Shown here: in pieces, positions 5,046 through 59,534 of the stretch
Layout of the letters: each line of letters starts with the position of its first letter
Position numbering within the stretch: position 1 is the stretch's first letter
Source: Spirosoma fluviale
GTDB lineage: Bacteria; Bacteroidota; Bacteroidia; Cytophagales; Spirosomataceae
Direction of reading: 5' to 3'
Length of the DNA: 64,000 nt
Assembly (NCBI RefSeq): GCF_900230225.1
Contig: NZ_OCNH01000001.1
Location: 1,364,001-1,428,000 of the forward strand
Translations under genes and position numbers: made by a program
The notes under the pieces: model-generated
The model's database searches: none
What the model was told of the DNA's origin: nothing
The model's input: only the letters and a program-made list of their open reading frames with translations

Positions 5046-7709
5046 TTAGGCCTCCAGTTTACCTTTCATCTTGCTGAATTCCCGATACCGACGAATGGTA
5101 GCAATCAGGAAGCCAAGCACCACGACGAGAGTCCCAATCCAGAGAAGATTAATAAGCGGCTTCTCCAGGGCTTTCATTACGATGTAATCGCGTTGGGTCC
5201 GGTTAACGGCAAACGTAAATTTGCCGGTGCGTGGATCAATTTCATTCAATTGGATACGAACGCCCAGTTCATCGCTCATCTCGGCAGGGTGCGCCACCAT
5301 ACGGTCCTTAATAACAAAGGCCGGGTTTAGAATGTGTTCGCCATTTTTGTCGAGCACCCGAACTCTGGCCCGTACAGCGGCATCAGAAGCGCCAATTTCT
5401 ACGCCATCGACTTCATTGGTTCGAGCAACATCGTCCAGAATAGCTACGTAGTCGTTCAGGAAAAACGTGTCTTTAATGGCAACAGAATACGTCTCCGTTT
5501 TCTCCCACTTATTCTCGGCCGTTGGGTCAGGCACCGACGATACGAAGGTATACATATCGCGATCCGCTTTGTGCCGAATATCGGGTGAAGCCAGCAGGCC
5601 CATCCGCTCGTTTACCTGAGCACGTGGATACAGGTTAAAAATCTGGCCGTTGGGTTCGCGGTACTCAACTTCATAATAGGTGTTCTCCGGATATAAAGCC
5701 AGCGTATCGCCTTTTTTGTGGTAGAGCTTACCATTTTGCTCAAGGTCGCGGAGGGCAATTCCGTGGAAGTCACCTTCAATCACTTCAACATCATTACGGG
5801 AAATATAACCCGGCATATCGCGGGCTTCAATTCGCTGGCCACGGTAGGTTAGCTGATAAGGGCCCATCTTCTCGGGCTGGTTTAACCACAGCAGTGTGTT
5901 TTCCTTATTTTCCTTGTTGTCGTTCTTGGTGAACTCGTCCTGCTTCGAAATCAGTAGACCTGTATTATTGATGGAAATGACCTTCGAGAAACCGGCAGAA
6001 TACAGCACCCCGATCAGCATCAGTGCCATACCAATGTGCGCAATGGCACCACCCGATAACCGGTAATTACCACGGATAACACCCAATAGAATAGTGCCGT
6101 TGGTCATTAGTGCGAACACAGAAGCAACAAGCAGCGCCATATATACCGGGTTTTTCATCTCGCCAAAGGCGATGAGCGCGGCACTGATCAGTAAGGTCAG
6201 AATACCCGGCGTAATGAGTGCTTCGAATTTCTTGCCCTCGATTTTACGCCACCACATAAACTGACCAATGCCCGTGATTATGGCAATAACCACAAAGAAC
6301 CAAACCTGAAATTTGTTGTAGTGAGCGATCTGGTCGGCAGGTAAGGCAAGGTTGGATATCTTTCCGAATGCTTCCAGAATCTTGTTATAAACCGGGATAG
6401 ACGTTGTGGCAATTACCTGAAACGAGGCCAGACACAGGACAGTAGCGCCGATAAACACCCAGAACTCTTTGGTATAAACCGAAGCCTCTTCGGCATCCGA
6501 CGGAATTTGTTTCCATTTGCGGGCCGCCAGCAGTACAGACAACGCCACAAAGACCAGCAGATAGATCAGCAGCTGACCGGAGAGCCCCAAATCGGTAAAT
6601 GAGTGTACGGAGGCATTACCCAGAATACCGCTACGGGTCAGGAAGGTAGCGTAGAGGATAAGTAGGAATGTGCTGATGCTCAGAATGATAGCCGTTTTTA
6701 GGCCCGTCGATGAGCGTTTAGCAATGAGCATGGTGTGCAAAGCCGCCACCATAACGAGCCAGGGAACATACACCGCATTCTCGACAGGGTCCCAGTTCCA
6801 ATACCCGCCGAAGTTAAGCGTTTCATAGGCCCAGTAGCCACCCATCATGATACCGATACCCAGAATCATGGCACCAAAGAGAGTCCAGGGGAGAGCAGGA
6901 CGAATCCATTCGAGCGGTTGGTTGCGCCACAGACCGGCAATGCAGTAGGCAAACGGCACCAGCGTTAAGGCAAAACCAAGGAACAGGGTAGGGGGGTGAA
7001 TGACCATCCAGTAGTTCTGAAGCAGTGGATTCAGTCCTTTACCGTCTTTGGGTACAAAGTTAGGATCGGCAGCGAAAATGGGCGCTTCCGGCATGGCTTC
7101 ACTCAGCAGCAGGAAGGGCGAAGAGCCAATCTTAAACGAGTCGCCAAAAACGACGCCCAGAATCATTGACGCCAGGAACGCCTGTACCAACGCAAAAATT
7201 GCCATCATGGGCGCTTCCCATTTGGTACCCGCTTTTTGAATCAAAATAGCTCCTAAAAGGGCATTCCAGAATAGCCAAAGCAGGAATGAACCCTCCTGAC
7301 TTTCCCAGAAACAGGCAATCATGTATTGGACCGGCAACGCCTTCGACGAGTGGCTCCAGGCGTAGTGGTACTCAAAGTAATGGTTGAAGATGATGTAGAA
7401 AAGCGAAGCCGCTACGCCAACCACAGCCAGACCATGCAGGTAAAAAGCCCAGCGGGCCAGTGACCGCCAATCGTCTCGGGCAGGCGGCATGGCTGCCTTT
7501 GCGACGGATTTAGCCGAATGCTTCGCCTTTTTGTTGCCAAAGTTAGCTTCACCGGCATACGCAAGTTGAGGTTCTTCGACGGCTTCCGCCTGTAGGGAAC
7601 GACCCAGGCCAAGTGCCGAAATAAAATACGCTGCCGTTGCTACAAGCGCCGTAACGAACGAGAGAATAACGAAAAAGTGGCCGAGTTGCCCGACTGTGGT
7701 ATGTATCAT
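5046..7709 (-). CDS. ccmF: Cytochrome c maturation heme lyase CcmF/CcsA-type
   Basis: About 887 residues, with many transmembrane helices and a large soluble domain near the C-terminus (after about residue 580). The heme-handling WWD motif is intact: MMGGYWAYETLNFGGYWNWD followed by PVENAVYVPWL. Flanking histidines (WMVIHPPTLFLG) match the family's heme ligands. CcmF takes heme from CcmE and attaches it to apocytochrome c outside the membrane. The frame extends to 7754, but the added residues are low-complexity; the ATG at 7709 (MIHTTVGQLGHFF) starts directly at the first helix and is preferred. It is larger than enterobacterial CcmF, as is usual for Bacteroidota. ccmE lies upstream and a small membrane protein downstream. 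Confidence 0.92.
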   Translation of the reverse strand: MIHTTVGQLGHFFVILSFVTALVATAAYFISALGLGRSLQAEAVEEPQLAYAGEANFGNKKAKHSAKSVAKAAMPPARDDWRSLARWAFYLHGLAVVGVAASLFYIIFNHYFEYHYAWSHSSKALPVQYMIACFWESQEGSFLLWLFWNALLGAILIQKAGTKWEAPMMAIFALVQAFLASMILGVVFGDSFKIGSSPFLLLSEAMPEAPIFAADPNFVPKDGKGLNPLLQNYWMVIHPPTLFLGFALTLVPFAYCIAGLWRNQPLEWIRPALPWTLFGAMILGIGIMMGGYWAYETLNFGGYWNWDPVENAVYVPWLVMVAALHTMLIAKRSSTGLKTAIILSISTFLLILYATFLTRSGILGNASVHSFTDLGLSGQLLIYLLVFVALSVLLAARKWKQIPSDAEEASVYTKEFWVFIGATVLCLASFQVIATTSIPVYNKILEAFGKISNLALPADQIAHYNKFQVWFFVVIAIITGIGQFMWWRKIEGKKFEALITPGILTLLISAALIAFGEMKNPVYMALLVASVFALMTNGTILLGVIRGNYRLSGGAIAHIGMALMLIGVLYSAGFSKVISINNTGLLISKQDEFTKNDNKENKENTLLWLNQPEKMGPYQLTYRGQRIEARDMPGYISRNDVEVIEGDFHGIALRDLEQNGKLYHKKGDTLALYPENTYYEVEYREPNGQIFNLYPRAQVNERMGLLASPDIRHKADRDMYTFVSSVPDPTAENKWEKTETYSVAIKDTFFLNDYVAILDDVARTNEVDGVEIGASDAAVRARVRVLDKNGEHILNPAFVIKDRMVAHPAEMSDELGVRIQLNEIDPRTGKFTFAVNRTQRDYIVMKALEKPLINLLWIGTLVVVLGFLIATIRRYREFSKMKGKLEA

Positions 7710-7798
7710 GAATAGAATGAATGAATCGTTGAGTGAATGAATGAGAGAATGCACTGATTCACCGCCTTGGCGGCACGGTCATTCAATCATGCAGCCAA

Positions 7799-8239
7799 TT
7801 ACAACTGTGCCGTTTTGGCTTCGTGTTCCGTTGTTTCCAACTTACCATCCTGGTACTTCGATGGGCATTTCAGCAGAATCTTGTTGCACTGAAAATGATC
7901 GTCCTGCATAGCGCCAATGATCACAATCTGTTCCGACCGCTCGAAATCCTGGGGCTTTGGGCTGTTAAAGACGACCTTCTGCGCCCGGTTTTCGTTGTCG
8001 ATCAGCGTGAACTCGAAGTGGTTTGGATCAATAGCGGGGTTATATAGCATGTCAGTTATACGACCCTGGGCATCTTTCTGAACTTTACCGACAACGTGAA
8101 TCATCTTGTCGTCGCCATCCTTCTTCATCTGCTCCGCTTTGGTGAAAGTCGTGTAAACGCTGGCATCACCCGCTGTGCTGGCAATGACACCAATGGCTAC
8201 TGCAATAATAATAATACCGATTATGTGAGAGATTTTCAT
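7799..8239 (-). CDS. ccmE: Heme chaperone CcmE, CxxxY variant
   Basis: About 146 residues: an N-terminal anchor (SHIIGIIIIAVAIGVIAS) and an OB-fold periplasmic domain. CcmE carries heme covalently from CcmC to CcmF. In the classical protein the heme is bound to the His of an HxxxY motif near the C-terminus. The corresponding place here reads ILLKCPSKYQDG, a CxxxY, so the histidine is replaced by cysteine. Such variants are known in some other bacteria and archaea. The start is ATG 8239 (MKISHIIG) rather than the longer frame from 8278, which would add a polar stretch before the anchor. It sits between the CcmD-like gene and ccmF. Confidence 0.9.
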   Translation of the reverse strand: MKISHIIGIIIIAVAIGVIASTAGDASVYTTFTKAEQMKKDGDDKMIHVVGKVQKDAQGRITDMLYNPAIDPNHFEFTLIDNENRAQKVVFNSPKPQDFERSEQIVIIGAMQDDHFQCNKILLKCPSKYQDGKLETTEHEAKTAQL

Positions 8240-49409: not shown

Positions 49410-50045
49410 TTATGTGATGATGAGGTCGTATTTGGTCAATAGGCCGGGCAGACTATGCAGCGAAAACTTTGTTTTTCGGATCTTGTTGTTGTCGGGGTCA
49501 AGGCTCAGGTTGTACGAACTCGAAAAGTCAGTTTGCGTCAGGGTGTTGGTGGCAAAAACCGTCAATTCGAGGTTACAATTTTTGAACAAAGCCCCGCTCA
49601 GATCGCAGTTCAGAAAACGAGCTTCACGCAGAGAACAATCGACAAACCGGGTCTTTTTCAGATTTCGGCTGAAAAACGAAGCATAATCGAGCTGGCACGT
49701 CTGAAAGTCGACATGGAAGCCAAATGCGCTGCATTGACCAAAGTTGACACCGTTCAGTTTACAGTCGGTAAACAGCACATCGTCGAGCTTAGTGCCCTCC
49801 AGTACCGCCATACCCAGATTGCAGTCGACAAAGCGGCAGTTGACGAAGCTTGTCCCGGCAAACGCTACTTTGGCCAGATCGAGGTTTTTAAACGTGCATT
49901 GCTCAAAACTATGGCGGTACCACTGGTCTGGTTCGTCTGTTGTCTGGTCAAAAAGCTGGTCGCAAAAATCCATTAATGGGCGGTTGTAAAGGATATAATC
50001 CGTTTTGGAAATAACATCAAACCTACCGCTGGTTTTGATAAACAT
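49410..50045 (-). CDS. Pentapeptide-repeat protein (Qnr/McbG-like)
   Basis: 211 residues from ATG 50045, whose first A is the last base of the WYL gene TGA (TGATG overlap). Most of the length is A(D/N)LxX-type repeats (for example FVNCRFVDCNLGMAVLEGTK, FVDCSLREARFLNCDLSGAL), predicting a right-handed beta helix. The C-terminal segment LDPDNNKIRKTKFSLHSLPG is like the dimerisation end of Qnr proteins, which protect gyrase. That function is not established here. Translationally coupled to the WYL regulator. Confidence 0.85.
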   Translation of the reverse strand: MFIKTSGRFDVISKTDYILYNRPLMDFCDQLFDQTTDEPDQWYRHSFEQCTFKNLDLAKVAFAGTSFVNCRFVDCNLGMAVLEGTKLDDVLFTDCKLNGVNFGQCSAFGFHVDFQTCQLDYASFFSRNLKKTRFVDCSLREARFLNCDLSGALFKNCNLELTVFATNTLTQTDFSSSYNLSLDPDNNKIRKTKFSLHSLPGLLTKYDLIIT

Positions 50046-51091
50046 CAAATTGAATCGGTTGCTGGCGGGTCTGCCTGGGGCTCGGTATAGGCATCCACGC
50101 CAGCCTTTAAGCGCCTGATAATGACACGGCGCAGGCGCTCCGGCTCAAGGACCTGCATCCCATCGCCAAAGCCCAGAATTTCTTTTTCCAGCTCAAAATT
50201 GTGTTGAACACTAAGCTGGATAACGATGCCATCCGGCCTTCGTTCAACCACCTCCTGCGATTGGTGAAGCGGTTTAGTTTCGACATAAGGTGCGTGCAAC
50301 TGGCTGACAAACAGCCTGACCCGGATGGGGCGCATCCGCTCGCTGACCGACACACCGATCACATCGCGGTAGTAGCGGTCGGGGTCCAGGTGCTGGTTGG
50401 CGATGTAGTCAATGTCGGGCGCTGGTGTGATAGCCAGCATGCGGTCGAGAGCCAGGTTCATGGTATAGCGTTTGCCATCGCATACACCCACGGCAAACCA
50501 GCGGTTCTTGAACTCTTTCAGCCACCAAACGTGAAAGGTGAACGTTTGGGGCAATCGCGCTGAAAACGACTGGTAATCGATCCGAAGCACCCGCTGCTGA
50601 ATTACTGCCTGATACAGCTCATCCAGAAAGTGAAGGCCTTTCAGGTTCTCGTTTTTTTCGAAGTCAATGACCGGGGCCGACTTCCGGGCGGTTGAATACA
50701 CATGGTCTTCCAGCTTCTGAACTACTTCATTCAGCGCTGTAAAATGCGAGAAACCCTTGAACTGCTTGAGCACTTCGACCGCTTCGTTCATCCGCGACAG
50801 ATCGCCATCCGACAGGGGAATGTTGGTAATGCTGTAAGCGGGGTCTTCGTACGTATAGTACTTTTTGTCGAGAACTATGATGGGTGCAAAATACCCCAGC
50901 TTATCACTGCGCATCATCTGAAGGTCGGCCTGAACGGTACGGCGACTGATGCCTTTGTCCAGTCCTTCGTACTCATACAGGGCTTCGGACACTTTCGCCA
51001 TCAGGTCGTCGAGCGTCCATTTGCGTTGGCGGTTGCGCAGGCAGGCATCCAGCGTTTTATATCGGACAAGGGCGTTTCGGTTGGCGGGCAC
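50045..51091 (-). CDS. WYL-domain transcriptional regulator
   Basis: 348 residues. N-terminal winged HTH (RKWTLDDLMAKVSEALYEYE and ISRRTVQADLQMMRSDKLGY), then the WYL domain (about residues 170-260, with VLRIDYQSFSARLP and WFAVGVCDGKRYTMNLALDR) and a WCX-like C-terminus. WYL domains bind nucleic acids or nucleotides and commonly control defence or repair genes. It is divergent from the RNA-rich interval and the slipin-rtcB pair and is the obvious candidate controller. Coupled downstream to the pentapeptide gene. Confidence 0.9.
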   Translation of the reverse strand: MPANRNALVRYKTLDACLRNRQRKWTLDDLMAKVSEALYEYEGLDKGISRRTVQADLQMMRSDKLGYFAPIIVLDKKYYTYEDPAYSITNIPLSDGDLSRMNEAVEVLKQFKGFSHFTALNEVVQKLEDHVYSTARKSAPVIDFEKNENLKGLHFLDELYQAVIQQRVLRIDYQSFSARLPQTFTFHVWWLKEFKNRWFAVGVCDGKRYTMNLALDRMLAITPAPDIDYIANQHLDPDRYYRDVIGVSVSERMRPIRVRLFVSQLHAPYVETKPLHQSQEVVERRPDGIVIQLSVQHNFELEKEILGFGDGMQVLEPERLRRVIIRRLKAGVDAYTEPQADPPATDSI

Positions 51092-51311
51092 GGGGAGAGG
51101 GATGTATGATGTAGGATATAAGATGTATGAGTATAGAGTGGGTACACTGATTTTTTTGAAAAGTTAGAAAATAGTTTCATCTGCGCAAAAACACTGCGTA
51201 GTGATGATAAACCTTTGTAGCGACGGGAAGGTCCATTACCAAACCTGACGCGGGTTTCTGTATAGCCCCGTAGTAGCGTCACCGCTGGTGTGCGCTATGC
51301 TGTTGGTTCTG

Positions 51312-51425
51312 GTTGATTTCGTCTCTAATCTGTCGGTCGGAGGTTCGAATCCTCCTCCTGTTTCGGCGGGGTAGCTCAGTGGGTAGAGCAGCAGGGAAAC
51401 GCAGGTTCGAATCCTGCTATCAACT
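51312..51425 (+). ncRNA. Circularly permuted tRNA-mimic RNA (YrlA / Y-RNA-like)
   Basis: A hand-paired fold. Core module 51329-51395: strand TCTGT (51329-51333), variable CGGTC, T-arm GGAGG-TTCGAAT-CCTCC (51339-51355), then a six-pair stem (51356-51361 with 51366-51371) capped by a UUCG tetraloop (51362-51365), the TA linker, D-arm GCTC-AGTGGGTA-GAGC (51374-51389), one A, and GCAGG (51391-51395), which pairs fully with TCTGT as the anticodon stem. So the D-arm follows the T-arm and the acceptor stem is closed: no free CCA end. T-loop and D-loop keep the tRNA residues for elbow contacts. A second T-arm, GCAGG-TTCGAAT-CCTGC (51401-51417), lies inside an outer stem GTTGAT/ATCAAC (51312-51317, 51419-51424). 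YrlA Y RNAs have this permuted design; the second T-arm is unusual. Confidence 0.72.
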
Positions 51426-51499
51426 CTAAAAAAGTTGATCCGTTGGTTGGGAAGATGGCCACTTCTAAAAAGGTCACCATAGGTCAAAATCAGTGAGGA

Positions 51500-51562
51500 G
51501 TTATCCGGTTGTGTGGCTGTCAGGGCTACGCAGCCGTCGTTTCGGCGACCGGATTGGATAAC
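51500..51562 (+). ncRNA. Structured RNA element, three-way junction
   Basis: GTTATCC (51500-51506) pairs with GGATAAC (51556-51562); inside are GGCTGT (51515-51520) / GCAGCC (51530-51535) and GTCGT-UUCG-GCGAC (51536-51549), the latter again with a UUCG cap. Together a closing stem with two hairpins. It may belong to the same transcript as the tRNA-mimic or be a separate small RNA or leader structure. Confidence 0.5.
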
Positions 51563-51563
51563 G

Positions 51564-51590
51564 CCAGCAAGCGGGTTTCGCGGTTGTTGG
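51564..51590 (+). ncRNA. Long hairpin following the three-way junction
   Basis: CCAGCAAGCG (51564-51573) and CGGTTGTTGG (51581-51590) pair in nine of ten positions, with a GGTTTCG loop. It starts two bases after the previous element, suggesting one continuous folded RNA. Confidence 0.45.
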
Positions 51591-51841
51591 GTGTGCGTCG
51601 TGACAGAACAGAACGTTGGATAGGTTGTCTGAAAGTGCCTTGGGGCACCGACGAAACGTAGTCAACCAATTTTCTGAACCATCGCACCAGGGCAATTGCT
51701 CACCCGCTTCCGCAATGCCCAAACGGGAGGCTTCTTACTGGTTTTGTTAATCGTTAATCGGGTTTTGGCAGTGGATATATGGTGCTGAGTAGCGCGCACT
51801 TAGCCCCAAATCTGTAAACCGACGCCCACAACTAAGTATCA

Positions 51842-52948
51842 ATGATGAAAACTGTACGCATTAAGGCCCTGCAAATCGGGTTAGTTTTTAAACATGGTGA
51901 TTTTAAGCAACTGCTCTCGGCGGGCCAGTACTGGCTTTGGTCGAACGAGACGGTGCATATCTATAATCAGGGCGAGCTATTGCAAAACCCGCCTTACGAT
52001 CTGGCTATGTTGCTTGAGTACCCGGACGTTGCCGCTGCGCTCGATGTCGTTGAGGTAGCCGATAATGAAATTGTGCTGCAATATGAGCATGGTCTTTTTC
52101 AGACGATTCTGCGCAAAGGTCGCTGGGCGTTCTGGAAGGGCGTGAAGCAGTATCAGTACATACGGGCTGATCTGAGCCAGTTGGACATACCGGCCACAAT
52201 CGACCTGGTTTCGCTGATGCCGCTGCCATTATCGACCTATGTGCGAGCCTTTACGGTAGAGGCTCACGAGCAGGGTGTGTTGTTCATCGACTGGAAATTC
52301 GACCGGGTGTTAACCCCCGGAACGTACTACTGGTGGAAAAATACGACGCCCGTCCATGTCCTGAAAGCCGACATGCGCCAGCAACAACTGGAAGTCTCCG
52401 GGCAGGAAATTCTGACTAAAGACAAAGCCTCGCTGCGGCTGAGCTTCTACGTTCAGTATCAGGTTCTGGATGTGAGTAAAGCATTAGTTGAGAATAAGGA
52501 CTTCGATAAACAACTGTATGTGTTGGTGCAACTGGCACTGCGTGAATACGTTGGCGGATTTACCCTCGACGAATTGCTGGATAAGAAGGGAGAAATAGCC
52601 CCGTTTGTCGTTAAAGCTACAGCGGATAAAGCAGCCCAGCTTGGTGTCGAGCTTCGAACGGGTGGTATTCGGGACATTATCCTGCCCGGCGACATGCGCG
52701 ATATCATGAATCAGGTGTTGATGGCCGAGAAAAAAGCGCAGGCAAACGTCATCATGCGCCGGGAAGAAACCGCGTCGACCCGGAGCTTGCTGAACACCGC
52801 CAAGCTGATGGAAGACAATGAAATGCTGTGGAAGTTGAAAGAGATGGAGTATGTTGAGAAGATTGCGGATAAAATCAGCTCCATCTCCGTCTCGAACAAC
52901 GGCTCGATGGTCGATCAGCTAAAGCAGATTTTAGGGCGCGGGAATTGA
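51842..52948 (+). CDS. Slipin/SPFH-domain protein without membrane segment
   Basis: 368 residues. SPFH/band-7 domain at about 180-310 (SLRLSFYVQYQVLDVSKALV, LREYVGGFTLDELLDKKGEI, VELRTGGIRDIILPGDMRDI), followed by a helical tail (MNQVLMAEKKAQANVIMRRE) that in relatives drives oligomerisation. No N-terminal transmembrane helix is present. Instead the first 165 residues contain three related units: IGLVFKHGDFKQLLSAGQYW, IVLQYEHGLFQTILRKGRWA and GVLFIDWKFDRVLTPGTYYW. It is 125 bp upstream of rtcB on the same strand. Confidence 0.9.
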   Translation: MMKTVRIKALQIGLVFKHGDFKQLLSAGQYWLWSNETVHIYNQGELLQNPPYDLAMLLEYPDVAAALDVVEVADNEIVLQYEHGLFQTILRKGRWAFWKGVKQYQYIRADLSQLDIPATIDLVSLMPLPLSTYVRAFTVEAHEQGVLFIDWKFDRVLTPGTYYWWKNTTPVHVLKADMRQQQLEVSGQEILTKDKASLRLSFYVQYQVLDVSKALVENKDFDKQLYVLVQLALREYVGGFTLDELLDKKGEIAPFVVKATADKAAQLGVELRTGGIRDIILPGDMRDIMNQVLMAEKKAQANVIMRREETASTRSLLNTAKLMEDNEMLWKLKEMEYVEKIADKISSISVSNNGSMVDQLKQILGRGN

Positions 52949-52971
52949 TGGGCGCTGTTTGACGGTCAGCC

Positions 52972-53056
52972 GTATCGCGGGTGGAAACCCGTGTAGCCGA
53001 AGGCTAAAAAAAGGATAGAGTTAGGCTTTGGCTACACGGGTTTCCACCCGCGATAC
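52972..53056. repeat. 27-bp perfect inverted repeat between slipin gene and rtcB
   Basis: Arms 52972-52998 and 53030-53056 (core GCGGGTGGAAACCCGTGTAG) are exact complements over 27 bases and continue imperfectly inward (GAAGGCTAA / TTAGGCTTTG). The loop is A-rich. It fills most of the gap and may attenuate or stabilise the transcript between the two genes. Confidence 0.85.
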
Positions 53057-53073
53057 TTGTAAAACTAAACCAA

Positions 53074-54612
53074 ATGGAAACACTTATTTCACTAGACGAT
53101 ATTTTAACATTAGGCCCCATTCCGGAGTCGCTACAGGCGGGATTTCTACGGGTGGCGAATGGGCTAATGCAACGGGGTAACTATCCTAAAGAGAAAGTGA
53201 TGACGCTTTTGGCGCAGATGCTCCAGAACCCGAAGAAGTTTGCTTTCTCGAAAAACAAAGTCACGAATCTGGCGCAGGCGATTTATAGTCTGAACAAACA
53301 GGGCATCGCCGTTCCGCTCAGCGAAACCGGTGCTGAGTACTTGCCCGCCGAACCCGCGCCTTATGCCTTGGCGAGTTCAGAGAAACAGGCCGAACAAACC
53401 ATTGGTCTGCGGGAGGGACCTTTACCCTATGCCGTTTTCGGTCGTGATTTTATTGAAGAAGGGGCGCTGAAACAGATGGAAACGGCCGCCAGCCTGCCTA
53501 TTTCGGTGGCGGGGGCACTCATGCCCGATGCGCACCAGGGGTACGGGCTTCCCATTGGCGGTGTGCTGGCTACGGAAGCAAATAGGGTTATTCCCTTTGC
53601 AGTGGGCGTCGATATTGCCTGCCGGATGTGCCTGTCGGTGTTCGACCTGCCCCCGACCTTTCTAACGCGCGAACCACACTTATTGAAGAGGGTTTTGATG
53701 GAGCAAACCAAGTTCGGCATGGGGGGCGAAACCCGCGAGAAGTTCGATGAGAGCGTGATGGACTTGCCCGAGTGGCAGGCTACTAAAGTTATTCGCGACC
53801 TGAAAGACAAAGCGTATCGCCAGCTGGGAAGCTCGGGAACGGGGAATCACTTCGTGGAGTGGGGCATTGTGGAGGTACATGAGGATAGCCTGACAAAAGA
53901 ATCTGGTTTGAATCTGCCACCGGGCGAATACCTTGCGCTGTTGTCTCACTCGGGTTCTCGCGGATTTGGGGCCAATATCGCCAACACCTATTCCAAACTG
54001 GCGATGCAGAAAACCAAACTGCCCCGGGAGGCCGCTCACCTCGCCTGGCTCGATCTGAATACGCAGGAGGGGCAGGAGTACTGGATCGGGATGAATCTGG
54101 CGGGGGAGTATGCCTCGGCCAACCACCACGAGATTCACAATAAACTGGCCAAAGCGTTACGGGAGAAACCGCTGCTCATGGTTGAGAATCACCATAATTT
54201 TGCCTGGAAAGAGCAACTGGCCGATGGCCGGGAGGTGCTTGTGCACCGAAAGGGCGCAACCCCCGCCGGGTCGGGTGTGCTGGGCATCATTCCGGGATCG
54301 ATGACGCAGCCGGGCTTTGTGGTACGCGGGAGAGGCAACGCCGAATCGATCAACTCAGCCTCGCACGGGGCCGGACGGCTTATGTCGAGAACGAAGGCGT
54401 TCAACAGCATCACCCGCTCGCAGTGGAACAAAGCCCTTGTAGAAGCCGGTGTTCAACTCGTGGGTGGCGATCTGGATGAAGCGCCAATGGCCTATAAAAA
54501 CATCGACACCGTTATTGAAGCCCAGCACGATCTGGTGGACGTACTGGCGAAATTCACCCCCAAAATCGTCCGCATGGCCGACGCGAACCGGAAAGAAGGA
54601 CGGGAGGATTGA
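53074..54612 (+). CDS. rtcB: RtcB-family RNA-splicing ligase
   Basis: 512 residues. RtcB joins RNA 2',3'-cyclic phosphate or 3'-phosphate ends to 5'-OH ends using GTP and Mn2+. Metal and guanylate-binding segments visible in order: AGALMPDAHQGYGLPIGGVL, IPFAVGVDIACRMCLSVF, LGSSGTGNHFVEWGIVEVH, LLSHSGSRGFGANIAN, MNLAGEYASANHHEIHN and SINSASHGAGRLMSRTKAF (guanylated His). The GNHF block reads GTGNHF rather than the usual GGGNHF, and GVDIACRM replaces GVDIGCGM, so this is a divergent branch. About 100 residues precede the catalytic core. No archease or rtcA is nearby. Confidence 0.93.
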   Translation: METLISLDDILTLGPIPESLQAGFLRVANGLMQRGNYPKEKVMTLLAQMLQNPKKFAFSKNKVTNLAQAIYSLNKQGIAVPLSETGAEYLPAEPAPYALASSEKQAEQTIGLREGPLPYAVFGRDFIEEGALKQMETAASLPISVAGALMPDAHQGYGLPIGGVLATEANRVIPFAVGVDIACRMCLSVFDLPPTFLTREPHLLKRVLMEQTKFGMGGETREKFDESVMDLPEWQATKVIRDLKDKAYRQLGSSGTGNHFVEWGIVEVHEDSLTKESGLNLPPGEYLALLSHSGSRGFGANIANTYSKLAMQKTKLPREAAHLAWLDLNTQEGQEYWIGMNLAGEYASANHHEIHNKLAKALREKPLLMVENHHNFAWKEQLADGREVLVHRKGATPAGSGVLGIIPGSMTQPGFVVRGRGNAESINSASHGAGRLMSRTKAFNSITRSQWNKALVEAGVQLVGGDLDEAPMAYKNIDTVIEAQHDLVDVLAKFTPKIVRMADANRKEGRED

Positions 54613-54636
54613 GTTTGGTAGCGGAGTGAAGAATCT

Positions 54637-54705
54637 GTAGTGCCGACCGTCCCGGTCGGGTGTGTATCTAATTGCTTCTCGCCCGACCGTCCCGGTCGGC
54701 ACTAC
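54637..54705. repeat. REP-like palindromic element, copy 2
   Basis: Arms 54637-54660 and 54682-54705, each with hairpin CCGACCG-TCC-CGGTCGG. The arms are inverted copies except that the core of the right arm is itself flipped. Same spacer ends (TGTG, TCTCG) as the copy at 31006-31072. Confidence 0.85.
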
Positions 54706-54830: not shown

Positions 54831-54952
54831 TTAACCACAGAGACGGTCCGCCGTTGCGGCACGGAGTGCACAGAGTCCTATCAGGGAAGACTATAACCCG
54901 TTAGAACCTCTGTACCCTCTGTGCCGCAACGGCGGACCGTCTCTGTGGTTAA
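54831..54952. repeat. 32-bp perfect inverted repeat before the restriction gene
   Basis: Arms 54831-54862 and 54921-54952 are exact complements over 32 bases (core GAGACGGTCCGCCGTTGCGG), with a 58-nt spacer that partly pairs inside. It lies 34 bp from the stop codon of the res gene (minus strand). Confidence 0.9.
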
Positions 54953-54985
54953 CTATTTTTGTTCAATTACTTATCAATCCAACCC

Positions 54986-57625
54986 TTACAACTGCCGTAT
55001 CAGCTCCTTTGCTTCCGCAATCGTGTAGGTGTCGACCAGCCGGTTCGTCTCGAATACCATAAAATAGGTGTACTGCCGACCGGCTTGCTGAGCCCATTTT
55101 TGCCCGAGCCGGTTCTTGGCGGCACTGTCGGAGTTGTCGCGGTCGTCGCCTTTGGTTTCGAGGAGAATCAACGTGCCGTTTTGGGTGTAAAGGATAAAAT
55201 CGGGGTAGTGGTTTGACTTATAGCCGTTGATGGCGAACCCTTTTCCCCGGCCCAAATTCCGGTGCCAGAACAGCACGTTAGGCAGCGCGGCCAGTTCGCT
55301 AATTACGCGTTCCTCGAAGCCGTTCATGCTGCCTTCCCGTTCATAGAGCGACTTGCCGAGTGATTTTCCCAGCAAACCCGGCACAATAGTTTTCTTAAAA
55401 ACGAAGCCCTGCTCCACCGAAATCTTCCCGATAACCAGCAGTTTTTTAAACTGGTCTTCGGCATATACATCCGCCAGCGCCCGAATTTTCTTCCTGATCT
55501 TGTCGCGATAGGTGTATTCCCGCGCCAGCAGATCCTTGATGCGTTCGGCGTCGAAACTGCTTAGAATGCGCTCCAGATACAGCCTGATCTGCTGGTCGGG
55601 AATGGGGTACATGTTGCCGATTAATTGCAGCATCCGGTGGGCGAGGTCTTTTACCTGGCCCGCTTTCGGCTTGGTCAGGATATAATCCACAAAGGCTTCT
55701 TTCACCTGTAAGTTGTCGATCTGTAGAAAAACCGGGCGGTACTGGTTGCCCTGCGTGCGTTCGATGTCGATTTTGTAGAGGTCGGTTTCCACCGTATCCC
55801 AGTCGATCTTTATATCTTCATCGGCCAGTCGGAAGCCTTTCAACAACACCTCCTGATTAAGTAGTACGCGTTCGCCCTGACCAAAGAGCCCCGTTTGCGG
55901 CACGTTTAAATAAAACTGCGGCAACCTGAGCTGCTGGGCAATGGCTGCAAAATCCTGATTGAGCGAGATCTTTTTCACGGTAGAGCCGAGTTCCTGAAAC
56001 AGGGGCGATGAATTGTCCGATCCCTGCTGATTGAGTTGCTTTTCAAATTCCTGATTCTTCTCAAGCGCAATCTGGGTGATGGCCGTCAGCGCGGGCGGTA
56101 GTTCGGCGGGTGCTTCGTCGGACGTAAGAGTTGGATCGAACTGGATTTTTTCCGGCTCAATCTCGTCGCTGGCGGTGTCTTCCCGTTCAGGAAACAGAAA
56201 GCCCTGCAAGGCCTGGGCTTTGGTGGTGGGCTGTTCCTCAATTTTCTGCTCATCCGTAGAACGGTAATCGTTGCGGCTGAACCCGGCCGATTCCAGTCCC
56301 CGAATGATGCTTTGCAGGGTTTCGTTGAATTTGGCCGAGGCCGTGAGCACATACGATACGTTGAGCAGGTCGCTCTGGTGGCGCATGACGTAGGGCTGCC
56401 GTAACACCCGCCCAAGAATCTGCTCGATGTCAACCGCCGACGACCGGTCGGCCAGCGATGCCAGTATGTACGCAAAAGGACAGTCCCAGCCTTCTTTCAG
56501 CGCGTTGACCGTAATGATGTAGCGCACCGGGCATTTGGGGCTCATCAGATCGACGTCTTTGAGTTCGTTGATGTCGGCGGTCTTGATCTTGATCTGCTCT
56601 TCCGGAATTTTGAGTTTGAGCAACTGCTGTTTTAATTTCTCAAACGTGGTGTTATCGTCTCCCGTTTTGGGTTGCGCCTGGAACAGTACAATGGGCCTGA
56701 TGTAGCGTCCGCCCGCTTTTTGCTCGGCTTTGGCCAGCTGTTCCAACTGCCGCTGGAGGTTCAGCGCGCTCTCTACCACCTGCGATTTCTCCTTGTGATT
56801 ATAGGCAATGACCGGCAGCTTCACCATTTGCTCTTTCTTGAGTTCGATGGCCGATACAAAGCTGACGATGTTGGCATTTTTCTTGGGCGTTGCCGTCAGA
56901 TCGAGGATGAACGATGGGTTCAGATCCCGAAGCATATCAACGCTCAGGTCGCTCTCGGCATTGTGACTTTCGTCGACGACAACGACTGGCGTCAGACTAC
57001 GGATTACGTTGATCAGGGCCGTTTGGTCGGTATCGGCCAGCAGGTGATCGTCGGAATCGTACTGACTGGCGAAGGTAGCCAACGCGCCATTTTCCTCGAA
57101 AATCTTACGGTCTTCTTTCTTTTTGGCCCGTAAGCTGCCAAAGCTCAGAACAAAAATGCTGAGTTGCTCCTGTACCACGGCCGGACTGAAATTAGCCCCC
57201 TGCAACAGGTCCTTTTTCTGGTAAACGGCCACGCGGTGGTTAAACAGGCTGTTCAGTTTCTGGCGGTAGGGGTGGGCCGGGTTCGACAGGTTCCGCACGG
57301 TCTGGTCGAGGAGGTTGCTCCAGGGAACCAGCCAGACCACCGCCTTAGGTTTGTCAAGCGCAAAGGCGTCGAACAGCGTGTGGAGGGCGTTGACGGCAAT
57401 AAACGTTTTGCCGCCCGCCGTGGGTACCTTCACACAAACGTGCGGTGCGCCGGGTACGTTGTTCTGGTAAGGCCGCATCCCGGTGTTATTCAGTGGGTCG
57501 TAGTCGCCCACTTCATCCCGCCAATAGCGGTTGTAAGCCACGTCATAGCGGTGTTCCTGCTGAATGTAATGCAGGTAGCGGTCAAGGTCGCGGATAACGC
57601 CCGCCTGGTAGGGTTTGAGTTCCAT
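54986..57625 (-). CDS. res: Type III restriction enzyme, Res subunit
   Basis: 879 residues. N-terminal SF2 helicase: Walker A CVKVPTAGGKTFIAVNALHT (about residue 64), DExH box PVVVVDESHNAESD, motif VI region QILGRVLRQPYV. The C-terminal endonuclease domain is recognised by the PD...E-x-K pattern: NHYPDFILYTQNGTLILLET followed by KGDD. Res cleaves 25-27 bp from unmethylated sites after ATP-driven sliding. It begins immediately (0 bp) after mod, so the two are co-expressed. Confidence 0.93.
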   Translation of the reverse strand: MELKPYQAGVIRDLDRYLHYIQQEHRYDVAYNRYWRDEVGDYDPLNNTGMRPYQNNVPGAPHVCVKVPTAGGKTFIAVNALHTLFDAFALDKPKAVVWLVPWSNLLDQTVRNLSNPAHPYRQKLNSLFNHRVAVYQKKDLLQGANFSPAVVQEQLSIFVLSFGSLRAKKKEDRKIFEENGALATFASQYDSDDHLLADTDQTALINVIRSLTPVVVVDESHNAESDLSVDMLRDLNPSFILDLTATPKKNANIVSFVSAIELKKEQMVKLPVIAYNHKEKSQVVESALNLQRQLEQLAKAEQKAGGRYIRPIVLFQAQPKTGDDNTTFEKLKQQLLKLKIPEEQIKIKTADINELKDVDLMSPKCPVRYIITVNALKEGWDCPFAYILASLADRSSAVDIEQILGRVLRQPYVMRHQSDLLNVSYVLTASAKFNETLQSIIRGLESAGFSRNDYRSTDEQKIEEQPTTKAQALQGFLFPEREDTASDEIEPEKIQFDPTLTSDEAPAELPPALTAITQIALEKNQEFEKQLNQQGSDNSSPLFQELGSTVKKISLNQDFAAIAQQLRLPQFYLNVPQTGLFGQGERVLLNQEVLLKGFRLADEDIKIDWDTVETDLYKIDIERTQGNQYRPVFLQIDNLQVKEAFVDYILTKPKAGQVKDLAHRMLQLIGNMYPIPDQQIRLYLERILSSFDAERIKDLLAREYTYRDKIRKKIRALADVYAEDQFKKLLVIGKISVEQGFVFKKTIVPGLLGKSLGKSLYEREGSMNGFEERVISELAALPNVLFWHRNLGRGKGFAINGYKSNHYPDFILYTQNGTLILLETKGDDRDNSDSAAKNRLGQKWAQQAGRQYTYFMVFETNRLVDTYTIAEAKELIRQL

Positions 57626-59218
57626 CTAAAACCGGCTTATGTCCCGTGGGATTTTCTTGAAAATGATGTGCCGTTGCTGGAGCCATTCGCGGCCGACCAG
57701 GCAGTTGTCGGCGTAGATAACGTACTGTTCGGCCACGGTCTGAATGGTCGACAGGAAGTCGTAATCCAGCGTGGTCAGGTCGTCGGGTTCGAAATAGAAG
57801 TAGTAAGCTGTTTCGTAGAGCTTACCCAGAAAGTGCGGGCTTTCGGTCACAATGAAAGGGCATTCAGAAAACGGGGTTCGGGTTTCGGAATACCAGATAT
57901 ACTCCCGGATGCGGTCCGGCGGCAGGGCTTCGTTGAGCTGGCCGTCATCGGTAAACAGGGCCGGGCCGAGTTCGTAATAGGTGAAGCTGCCCCCGGTGCC
58001 TTCTTTATCGCCGTAGCCGTCGATCACCCGCCGAACGCGTTCGGCCGTGATGGTTTCGGCATAGTCTTCCATCTCCACCAGAATAAACTGCCGATTCCCC
58101 GCGTCCTGTTTGTTTAAATTCAACACCGCATGGGCTGTAGTGCCCGAACCAGCAAAGGAGTCGAGAATGATGTCGTTTGGGCCGGTAGCAATTTGGAGGA
58201 TGCGCTCAATTAATAAAGAAGGCTTAGGAGTAATAAATAGATCTTCATTACTCGTCGCAGACATAACCTTACTTAATTCTTGCTTAGAGTTTCGAGTACT
58301 TCCGACGTCTTTCCAATGCCATAGTGTTTGTGGTACCACACCATCTTGAACCTCTGTAAGAAATCTTTTTACACCAGGCCTATTATCTCCGTTTTTACCC
58401 CAATATATTCTGTTGTCTTTATCTAGTTGGTCAAATTTTTCCCTACTAATTCGCCAGTAACTACCAGCAGGAGGGCCTTGAATTATGCGGCCAATTTTTG
58501 TTGTAATTGGATACTGGCCAAGACTATAAAAGTTGCGTGCTGCTAGATCGCTAAGAAGCCAGGGACCTCTTGGGTCGTTGTCTGGATTCTTATATCTCGC
58601 ATTCATTGCATCCGTTCTAGGTAATTTTTTCGGACGCCAAATCGTACTATCTTTTGCGTAGACGGCGATATAATCATGATCCTCACTAAAATGAATTGCC
58701 GTGTTTTTGGGGCTGTCCATTTTATGCCAAATAATGGTAGTGATAAAGTTACGGTCGCCCCATATCTCATCCATCATCAGCTTCAAACTGGCCTGTTCAT
58801 TATCGTCGATGGACACGAAAATAGCACCATCATCGGCCAGCAACCGATGGAGCAGTTGAAGCCGGGGGTACATCATGCATAGCCATTTGTCGTGGCGGCT
58901 AAGGTCTTCGCTTTCTTTGCCTACAACTTTGCCGAGCCACCGTTTTAGTTTCGGGTCGCTGACATTGTCATTATATACCCAGTTTTCGTTGCCGGTGTTG
59001 TAGGGAGGGTCAATGTAAATGCACTTGATCCGGCCTTCGTAGTAGGGCAGGAGGGCTTTCAGAGCTTCCAGATTGTCGCCGTGAATAATGCGGTTTGGAC
59101 GGTCCGTCGCACGGGAGTCGGCTTGTCCGTAGGTGTATTGCTGGTCGAGAACCCGAAACGGAACGTCGTGGTGATGATTGACTACTTTATCTTTCCCAAT
59201 CCAGGTAAGTGTGGGCAT
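57626..59218 (-). CDS. mod: Type III DNA N6-adenine methyltransferase, Mod subunit
   Basis: 530 residues from ATG 59218 (MPTLTWIGKDKVVNHHHDVP). Beta-class adenine methyltransferase: catalytic IKCIYIDPPYNTGNENWVY (DPPY) first, and the SAM motif DIILDSFAGSGTTAHAVLNL later. The variable target-recognition region lies between (about residues 150-340) and is visibly lower in GC than the flanks, as expected for an exchangeable specificity domain. The frame extends to 59323, but the extension lacks family support. Confidence 0.93.
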   Translation of the reverse strand: MPTLTWIGKDKVVNHHHDVPFRVLDQQYTYGQADSRATDRPNRIIHGDNLEALKALLPYYEGRIKCIYIDPPYNTGNENWVYNDNVSDPKLKRWLGKVVGKESEDLSRHDKWLCMMYPRLQLLHRLLADDGAIFVSIDDNEQASLKLMMDEIWGDRNFITTIIWHKMDSPKNTAIHFSEDHDYIAVYAKDSTIWRPKKLPRTDAMNARYKNPDNDPRGPWLLSDLAARNFYSLGQYPITTKIGRIIQGPPAGSYWRISREKFDQLDKDNRIYWGKNGDNRPGVKRFLTEVQDGVVPQTLWHWKDVGSTRNSKQELSKVMSATSNEDLFITPKPSLLIERILQIATGPNDIILDSFAGSGTTAHAVLNLNKQDAGNRQFILVEMEDYAETITAERVRRVIDGYGDKEGTGGSFTYYELGPALFTDDGQLNEALPPDRIREYIWYSETRTPFSECPFIVTESPHFLGKLYETAYYFYFEPDDLTTLDYDFLSTIQTVAEQYVIYADNCLVGREWLQQRHIIFKKIPRDISRF

Positions 59219-59534
59219 TATGAGCGTCGGGATAATACAGGTGAACGCCCCGAGGCTCAATAGAGGGCAAAAAAAAACGGGCGGCCTCCGCTGTTCGTAG
59301 TTACCAGTCTGAGGCACGGCCATGCCATTGCAGGATAGTACGAAAACAGCAAGAGAACACGCCCTTTCGAGCGCGTCCTGCTTAACTGTTTCCTCCTGCT
59401 TAAAAATTGGCCGTTTTCAGACTGGAGAAACTGTTAGCAACGCTATGTCTTTATGTAAGAATGACTTGTCTTTTTTGCGCTATACGTGTCGAAATTTTAG
59501 CCAGCAAGTTAGCCCGATTAACCGAATTGCCCAA

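Follow-up and report, generated by a model that had tools for sequence, protein, structure and literature searches.

What function joins a WYL-family regulator, a structured RNA, a protein of the SPFH/slipin family, and an RNA ligase of the RtcB family when their genes lie side by side? The question is raised by a 64,000-nt stretch of the Spirosoma fluviale genome (contig NZ_OCNH01000001.1, positions 1,364,001 to 1,428,000), here called the window, in which the regulator gene on the minus strand is followed on the plus strand by a 750-nt gap with the RNA, the slipin gene, and rtcB. Our answer is that this is probably an inducible tRNA-repair locus, governed by the WYL regulator and consisting of a leader RNA with a permuted tRNA fold, an SPFH scaffold, and RtcB. 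The evidence comes from sequence comparison and concerns the parts themselves, their conservation, the fold of the RNA, a shared palindrome, and an apparent exchange with Ro60 and Y RNA. A first-pass annotation of the window had already placed the four elements together, with a tRNA-mimic RNA in the gap, and domain matches and RNA models confirm that layout:

50045-51091, minus strand: WYL regulator gene (WYL and WCX domains), divergent from the RNA; domain matches and family tally
51092-51841, RNA on plus strand: gap between the WYL and slipin genes, 750 nt
51182-51200, no strand: palindrome TGCGCA-N7-TGCGTA, predicted WYL operator
51214-51217, plus strand: TTTG, similar to a Bacteroidota -7 promoter element; fixed spacing from the palindrome
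51242-51321, plus strand: 5′ RNA domain, a hairpin whose loop region has TTTCTGTATAG, followed by a covarying stem
51326-51396, plus strand: circularly permuted tRNA unit; pairing test, covariation, covariance model
51339-51355, plus strand: T-arm 1
51356-51371, plus strand: acceptor-like stem with short closing loop; pairing test, covariation
51372-51389, plus strand: D-arm and preceding TA
51401-51417, plus strand: T-arm 2, the more constant of the two in the genus; comparison of loci
51419-51439, plus strand: closed hairpin ATCAAC/GTTGAT 3′ of T-arm 2 (putative capped minihelix)
51440-51841, plus strand: remainder of the leader to the slipin start
51842-52948, plus strand: SPFH/Band_7 (slipin) protein gene; domain match
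53074-54612, plus strand: RtcB-family RNA ligase gene; domain match, motifs aligned with the Pyrococcus active site

Results

The gap contains a circularly permuted tRNA unit

A gathering-level scan of the whole window with Rfam release 15 was empty, so the RNA may lack an Rfam family of its own. An Rfam tRNA match in the gap sits at the cut-off (29.0 bits), and a match to YrlA (RF02553) at 51309-51426 spans the full model (positions 1 to 114; E = 4e-7) with a subthreshold score of 39.4 bits against 69. The arms of the unit run in permuted order: the 3′ strand of the anticodon stem, the variable loop, the T-arm, a loop-closed acceptor stem, the D-arm, and the 5′ strand of the anticodon stem. 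Pairing of the acceptor stem in this order reached 4.80 of 5 pairs, compared to 3.62 when mates were shuffled between loci (maximum of 500 shuffles, 3.98; n = 60), whereas pairing of an ordinary tRNA acceptor was at chance (3.28 versus 3.31). In an alignment of 58 units, 96.9% of cells were paired versus 74.7% after shuffling, and 16 of 18 pairs had changes on both sides, with the T- and D-stems having been selected as paired beforehand and the other two helices not; slid-alignment controls were all at or below 53% paired. A covariance model built from these units, this one included, scored the window site at 75.4 bits and the next-best match in the genome at 24.7 bits. The separate 5′ domain also covaries, with double changes in 9 of 12 pairs across 21 sequences, and folding of the leader beat 20 of 20 shuffles (z = -3.3).

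Taken together, these results show that the gap RNA is a conserved element and not decay. The tRNA mimic proposed earlier therefore stands in part: a conserved RNA is present, but it is a permuted tRNA unit within a leader of ∼620 nt rather than a plain mimic.

The RNA accompanies slipin genes across loci

For comparison we used the best 80 of at least 533 slipin genes found, some on contigs that end early. Perfect T-arms were detected in the last kilobase 5′ of slipin at 78 of these 80 loci, 179 in sense and none in antisense orientation (79,644 nt), and downstream of slipin there were 15 in ∼529 kb. Within the genus, T-arm 2 and its closed hairpin were kept in all 15 loci, although a single outer pair is weak in L094 and L095. 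A complete anticodon arm lies 3′ of T-arm 2 in 51 of 81 loci, carrying 25 different anticodons, and is lacking in the window. The RNA core may accordingly be a capped minihelix onto which permuted tRNA units were added. In two loci, L144 (-168 to 0) and L155 (-171 to 0), the palindrome lies only ∼170 nt 5′ of slipin and so leaves no room for a long leader, whose place is taken by a tRNA-Tyr call in L144 and a lone T-arm in L155.

Slipin genes of this kind were also found in nine plasmid records (Burkholderia, 4; Escherichia, 2; Citrobacter, Photobacterium, and Subdoligranulum, 1 each), and a T-arm precedes slipin in all five loci fetched from outside Bacteroidota. The leaders of Escherichia coli and Citrobacter have a comparable minimal form, in which a closed hairpin comes directly after a T-arm (4 of 5 pairs). 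The gene 3′ of slipin encodes the RNA-repair polymerase RlaP in E. coli and an annotated nucleotidyltransferase in Citrobacter. A divergent rtcR adjoins the Citrobacter slipin, and GG-N10-GC, presumably a sigma-54-like element, occurs upstream of slipin in Citrobacter, E. coli, and Burkholderia and is absent from the other two of these five loci. The WYL regulator occupies the place that RtcR has in Citrobacter, in line with its earlier designation as regulator of the module. Among 5426 complete E. coli genomes, slipin was found in 1623 (∼30%), the leader region in 1624, and RlaP in 1624, so this form of the locus can be tested in ordinary hosts. MG1655, with nothing between yjbD and lysC, lacks the locus at this position. 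In one E. coli genome (L252), a zeta-toxin family gene (6961-7887) lies beside slipin-RlaP on the other strand.

Ligases, the slipin protein, and nearby tRNA genes

The window RtcB matches PF01139 with 288 bits and preserves the motifs aligned with the active site of the Pyrococcus enzyme, including the catalytic Cys and His motifs. Other repair-type genes were seen in slipin loci without a nearby RtcB: a T4-Rnl1-type ligase with PNKP in L099, and an RLIG1-type ligase with an exonuclease in L106. Further Bacteroidota slipin loci carry a calcineurin-type phosphoesterase (L109) or an RNase H-like protein and an AAA ATPase (L098).

The slipin itself, a member of a ring-forming protein family, appears to consist of three five-stranded beta units, the first and third SPFH1-like, followed by an SPFH2 domain and a C-terminal helix. 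In Pfam the window protein matches Band_7 only, at E values up to 5. No vault families were present among the 25 families listed, out of 30, for 64 slipin members. MVP is the only one among the matches listed that aligns along nearly the whole slipin model; for the first beta unit, Erlin and prohibitin fit at least as well.

Normal tRNA genes also gather upstream of slipin in the 80 loci, 242 in the same orientation and 4 antisense, compared to 17 downstream, 12 of them in L188 alone. Upstream calls nearer than 1 kb may in part be the leader RNA itself; 214 of the sense genes lie more than 1 kb from slipin, in 42 of the 80 loci. Arrays of 8 to 15 same-strand tRNA genes within ∼5.5 kb of slipin were found in L131, L134, L135, L137, L138, L140, L145, L153, L179, and L188. 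Encoded CCA is absent from 224 of the 242 upstream genes. Lys, Arg, Phe, Asn, Asp, and Gln tRNAs are the commonest, and Ala, Gly, Val, and Thr together account for 6 of the 214 genes beyond 1 kb; in one genome from which 33 other tRNA genes were taken for comparison, they make up 10 of those 33. In that genome, 9 of 12 array tRNAs have a same-anticodon partner among the 33, with identity of at most 60 to 75%, and hence are not recent copies. The tRNAs for Tyr, His, Asn, Asp, Arg, and Lys are known nuclease targets.

One WYL family and one palindrome appear to link slipin with Ro60

The first-pass annotation had suggested that the slipin may take the place of Ro60, and that a TROVE (Ro60) gene be sought elsewhere in the genome. 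The S. fluviale genome (7.8 Mb, 99.98% complete) gave no TROVE match. We then considered 36 genomes of the genus (G000 to G035), assigning regulators to this WYL family at E values below 1e-130. The family was present in 24 genomes, exactly those with slipin (16) or Ro60/TROVE (9), with both in G027; thus slipin or Ro60 occurs in 24 of 24 genomes with this WYL and in 0 of 12 without it (hypergeometric, 8e-10, relatedness ignored). RtcB of this branch is found in 20 genus genomes, all within the 24.

The palindrome points the same way. TRCGCA-N7-TGCGYA has a single exact match in the S. fluviale genome, the one in this gap, and in the 80 slipin loci it occurs 45 times upstream versus 4 times downstream of the slipin start; when spacers of 3 to 12 were compared, only 7 recurred. 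Its distance to TTTG is identical in 19 of 19 aligned Spirosomataceae loci and within one base in 29 of 33 wider loci. The palindrome also precedes Ro60 in all seven long Ro60 loci of this bacterial family, and in G001, G005, G014, G019, and G032 it lies 5′ of the rtcB that neighbors WYL and also 5′ of a Ro60 locus at a distance. The permuted-unit model R1 finds matches at the same seven long Ro60 loci (48 to 64 bits). Because of the WYL co-occurrence and the shared palindrome, slipin and Ro60 look like alternative partners under one regulator, as had been supposed. A single WYL seems to control two kinds of repair particle, one made of slipin and its RNA and the other of Ro60 and Y RNAs, and we infer that it binds the palindrome as its operator. 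We note that L131 and L161 hold TROVE and SPFH genes within one locus, with permuted RNA units.

Gene order, on which the earlier reading had been made to depend, is conserved in the genus: WYL lies within 4 kb in 13 of 15 slipin loci, and RtcB is the next gene in 14 of 15. Comparison thus supports the repair-module reading with respect to the module itself, the Ro60 alternative, the placement of WYL, and gene order, but not for the pentapeptide gene (49410-50048), which had been counted as a possible part. The gene is real, but of the 15 slipin loci in the genus it was found in just 3.

Two further features lie near these genes. Large inverted repeats that look REP-like by eye occupy intergenic positions 52975-53060, 54635-54705, and 54835-54955 (e.g., GCGGGTGGAAACCCGTGTAGCC and its complement). 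A type III restriction enzyme and methyltransferase are encoded beyond rtcB on the opposite strand (54986-59323).

Discussion

A model for the locus and its alternatives

We propose that the WYL regulator, responding to a signal, perhaps the broken RNA ends suggested earlier, would bind the palindrome at 51182-51200 and control a single rightward transcript comprising, in order, the structured leader with its permuted-tRNA unit, the SPFH scaffold, and RtcB. The SPFH protein would oligomerize and hold the RNA, whose exposed parts would be an elbow of T-arm and D-arm and an acceptor stem that is capped and has no charging end. Lacking such an end, the RNA may stand in for a tRNA as a dummy by which the ligase is recruited or positioned, presumably through contact between SPFH protein and RtcB, and perhaps serves as a decoy for tRNA-cutting nucleases. 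RtcB would then reseal the cut tRNAs, its likely substrate.

Several observations count against this proposal. On the RNA side, two of the 80 loci, L128 and L144, lack a perfect T-arm in the kilobase 5′ of slipin; the permuted unit is present in 9 of the 15 genus loci and missing from 6, gained or lost as a clean block; outside the genus, L127 (Arsenicibacter) has the permuted unit without T-arm 2; and the window has no tRNA array, ARAGORN finding no tRNA anywhere in it. On the protein side, an RtcB-family match occurs in 53 of the 80 slipin loci, this WYL in the fetched flank of only 29 of the 80, and G023 has slipin and RNA with no RtcB of this branch. In G016 (L096) slipin and RtcB are both split, possibly through an assembly error, and WYL is kept, and in G006 (L097) slipin is reduced to a C-terminal remnant while RtcB and WYL remain. 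Among three short Ro60 loci outside the family, the palindrome is found in L064 only, not in L054 or L063. Nor is it exclusive: against 55 matches in the 24 genus genomes with this WYL, 16 occur in the 12 that lack it, where a backward-palindrome control gave 2.

A different view of the leader is that it is only a cis-acting sensor, T-box-like or an attenuator, which switches on slipin-rtcB when tRNAs are cut and has no life beyond the mRNA. The leader is flanked by a promoter-like site and the slipin start, a scan of 51440-51841 revealed nothing terminator-like at the leader's end, the pairing around T-arm 2 might be able to switch, and in L122 one RNA unit stands directly 5′ of rtcB. Ro60 loci, however, carry the permuted fold 3′ of the Ro60 gene and not as a leader, with two units at five of the seven long loci, and the number of units varies while the genes stay. 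We therefore regard a purely cis-acting role as unlikely. Very unlikely, in our judgment, is that the SPFH protein acts at membranes like ordinary stomatins, with RtcB adjacent by chance: the gene is linked to RNA ligases, RlaP, WYL or RtcR, and the RNA across several phyla, and no transmembrane stretch was seen by eye on the sequence, no predictor having been run. That the RNA consists of functionless remnants of tandem tRNA genes is scarcely credible, for although the junction of two head-to-tail tRNAs would give a permuted unit, tRNA tandems are also picked up by model R1 and by the Rfam model of YrlA, and relatives have real tRNA arrays upstream, the permuted pairs covary while canonical pairing is at chance, the separate 5′ domain covaries, and ARAGORN finds no tRNA in the 16 genus slipin loci L001 to L016.

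Relation to known systems

The proposed tRNA-repair locus falls into a class that is apparently not new. In 2016, Burroughs and Aravind reportedly described modules in which an SPFH/Band-7 protein goes with a tRNA-like RNA of a new type, alongside Ro60 and its Y RNAs. The window shares with that class an SPFH gene beside an RNA ligase gene and a conserved cognate tRNA-like RNA, and there, reportedly, as here the system is read as a repair scaffold. It appears to be set apart by the WYL regulator and candidate operator, the permuted topology, the exchange with Ro60 under one regulator, and the tRNA arrays of relatives; the permuted fold, the WYL regulon, and the tRNA-gene arrays are apparently new.

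The rsr-yrlBA-rtcBA operon of Salmonella, in the excerpted account (PMC7790460), resembles the window in joining RtcB to an RNA that mimics tRNA, to a partner protein, and to a divergently encoded regulator of its own. The arm order of the Rfam YrlA consensus (T-arm, closed acceptor, D-arm) is the same as in the window RNA, which falls short of the YrlA gathering score as given above. The differences from the operon as excerpted are that SPFH replaces Ro60, WYL replaces RtcR, and the RNA lies within the long leader of the scaffold gene. Neither Ro60 nor an adjacent divergent RtcR accompanies this RtcB: the former has no match in the genome, and the neighbor is WYL, RtcR not having been searched for genome-wide. 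The same excerpt suggests YrlA as a possible anticodon-nuclease inhibitor (PMC7790460).

Pseudomonas aeruginosa PA14 has in its rtc locus an SPFH gene, PaFlo8, among those for RtcA, RtcB, and RtcR, and the passage describing it names neither an RNA nor WYL (PMC13086221). In Anabaena, according to the extract on the TrcR regulon (PMC10272220), one repressor tied to translational stress controls rtcB, a slipin-family gene, and the trn tRNA operon; there the genes are scattered and the regulator belongs to another family.

The eukaryotic vault, as summarized in an excerpt (PMC13174449), is a possible parallel, combining beta units and an SPFH shoulder (MVP), a TROVE protein (TEP1), and a small RNA. 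The window protein does not match the vault families by sequence and in Pfam matches Band_7 only. A bolder and quite unlikely extension of our model is that SPFH protein and RNA assemble into a vault-like particle sheltering cut tRNAs for the ligase, that the loci hold diverged tRNA genes of nuclease-target type in reserve, and that vault and Ro60 particles descend from bacterial tRNA-repair particles. If it were true, bacterial tRNA repair would possess the vault kit, an MVP-like SPFH shell, a TROVE protein, and a small permuted-tRNA RNA, together or exchanged. The locus touches on how bacteria survive tRNA-cutting toxins and on the purpose of Y RNAs and vault RNAs: a single regulator and a single palindrome seem to connect two repair particles that are alternatives to each other and have a permuted-tRNA RNA in common, and relatives add arrays of spare tRNA genes.

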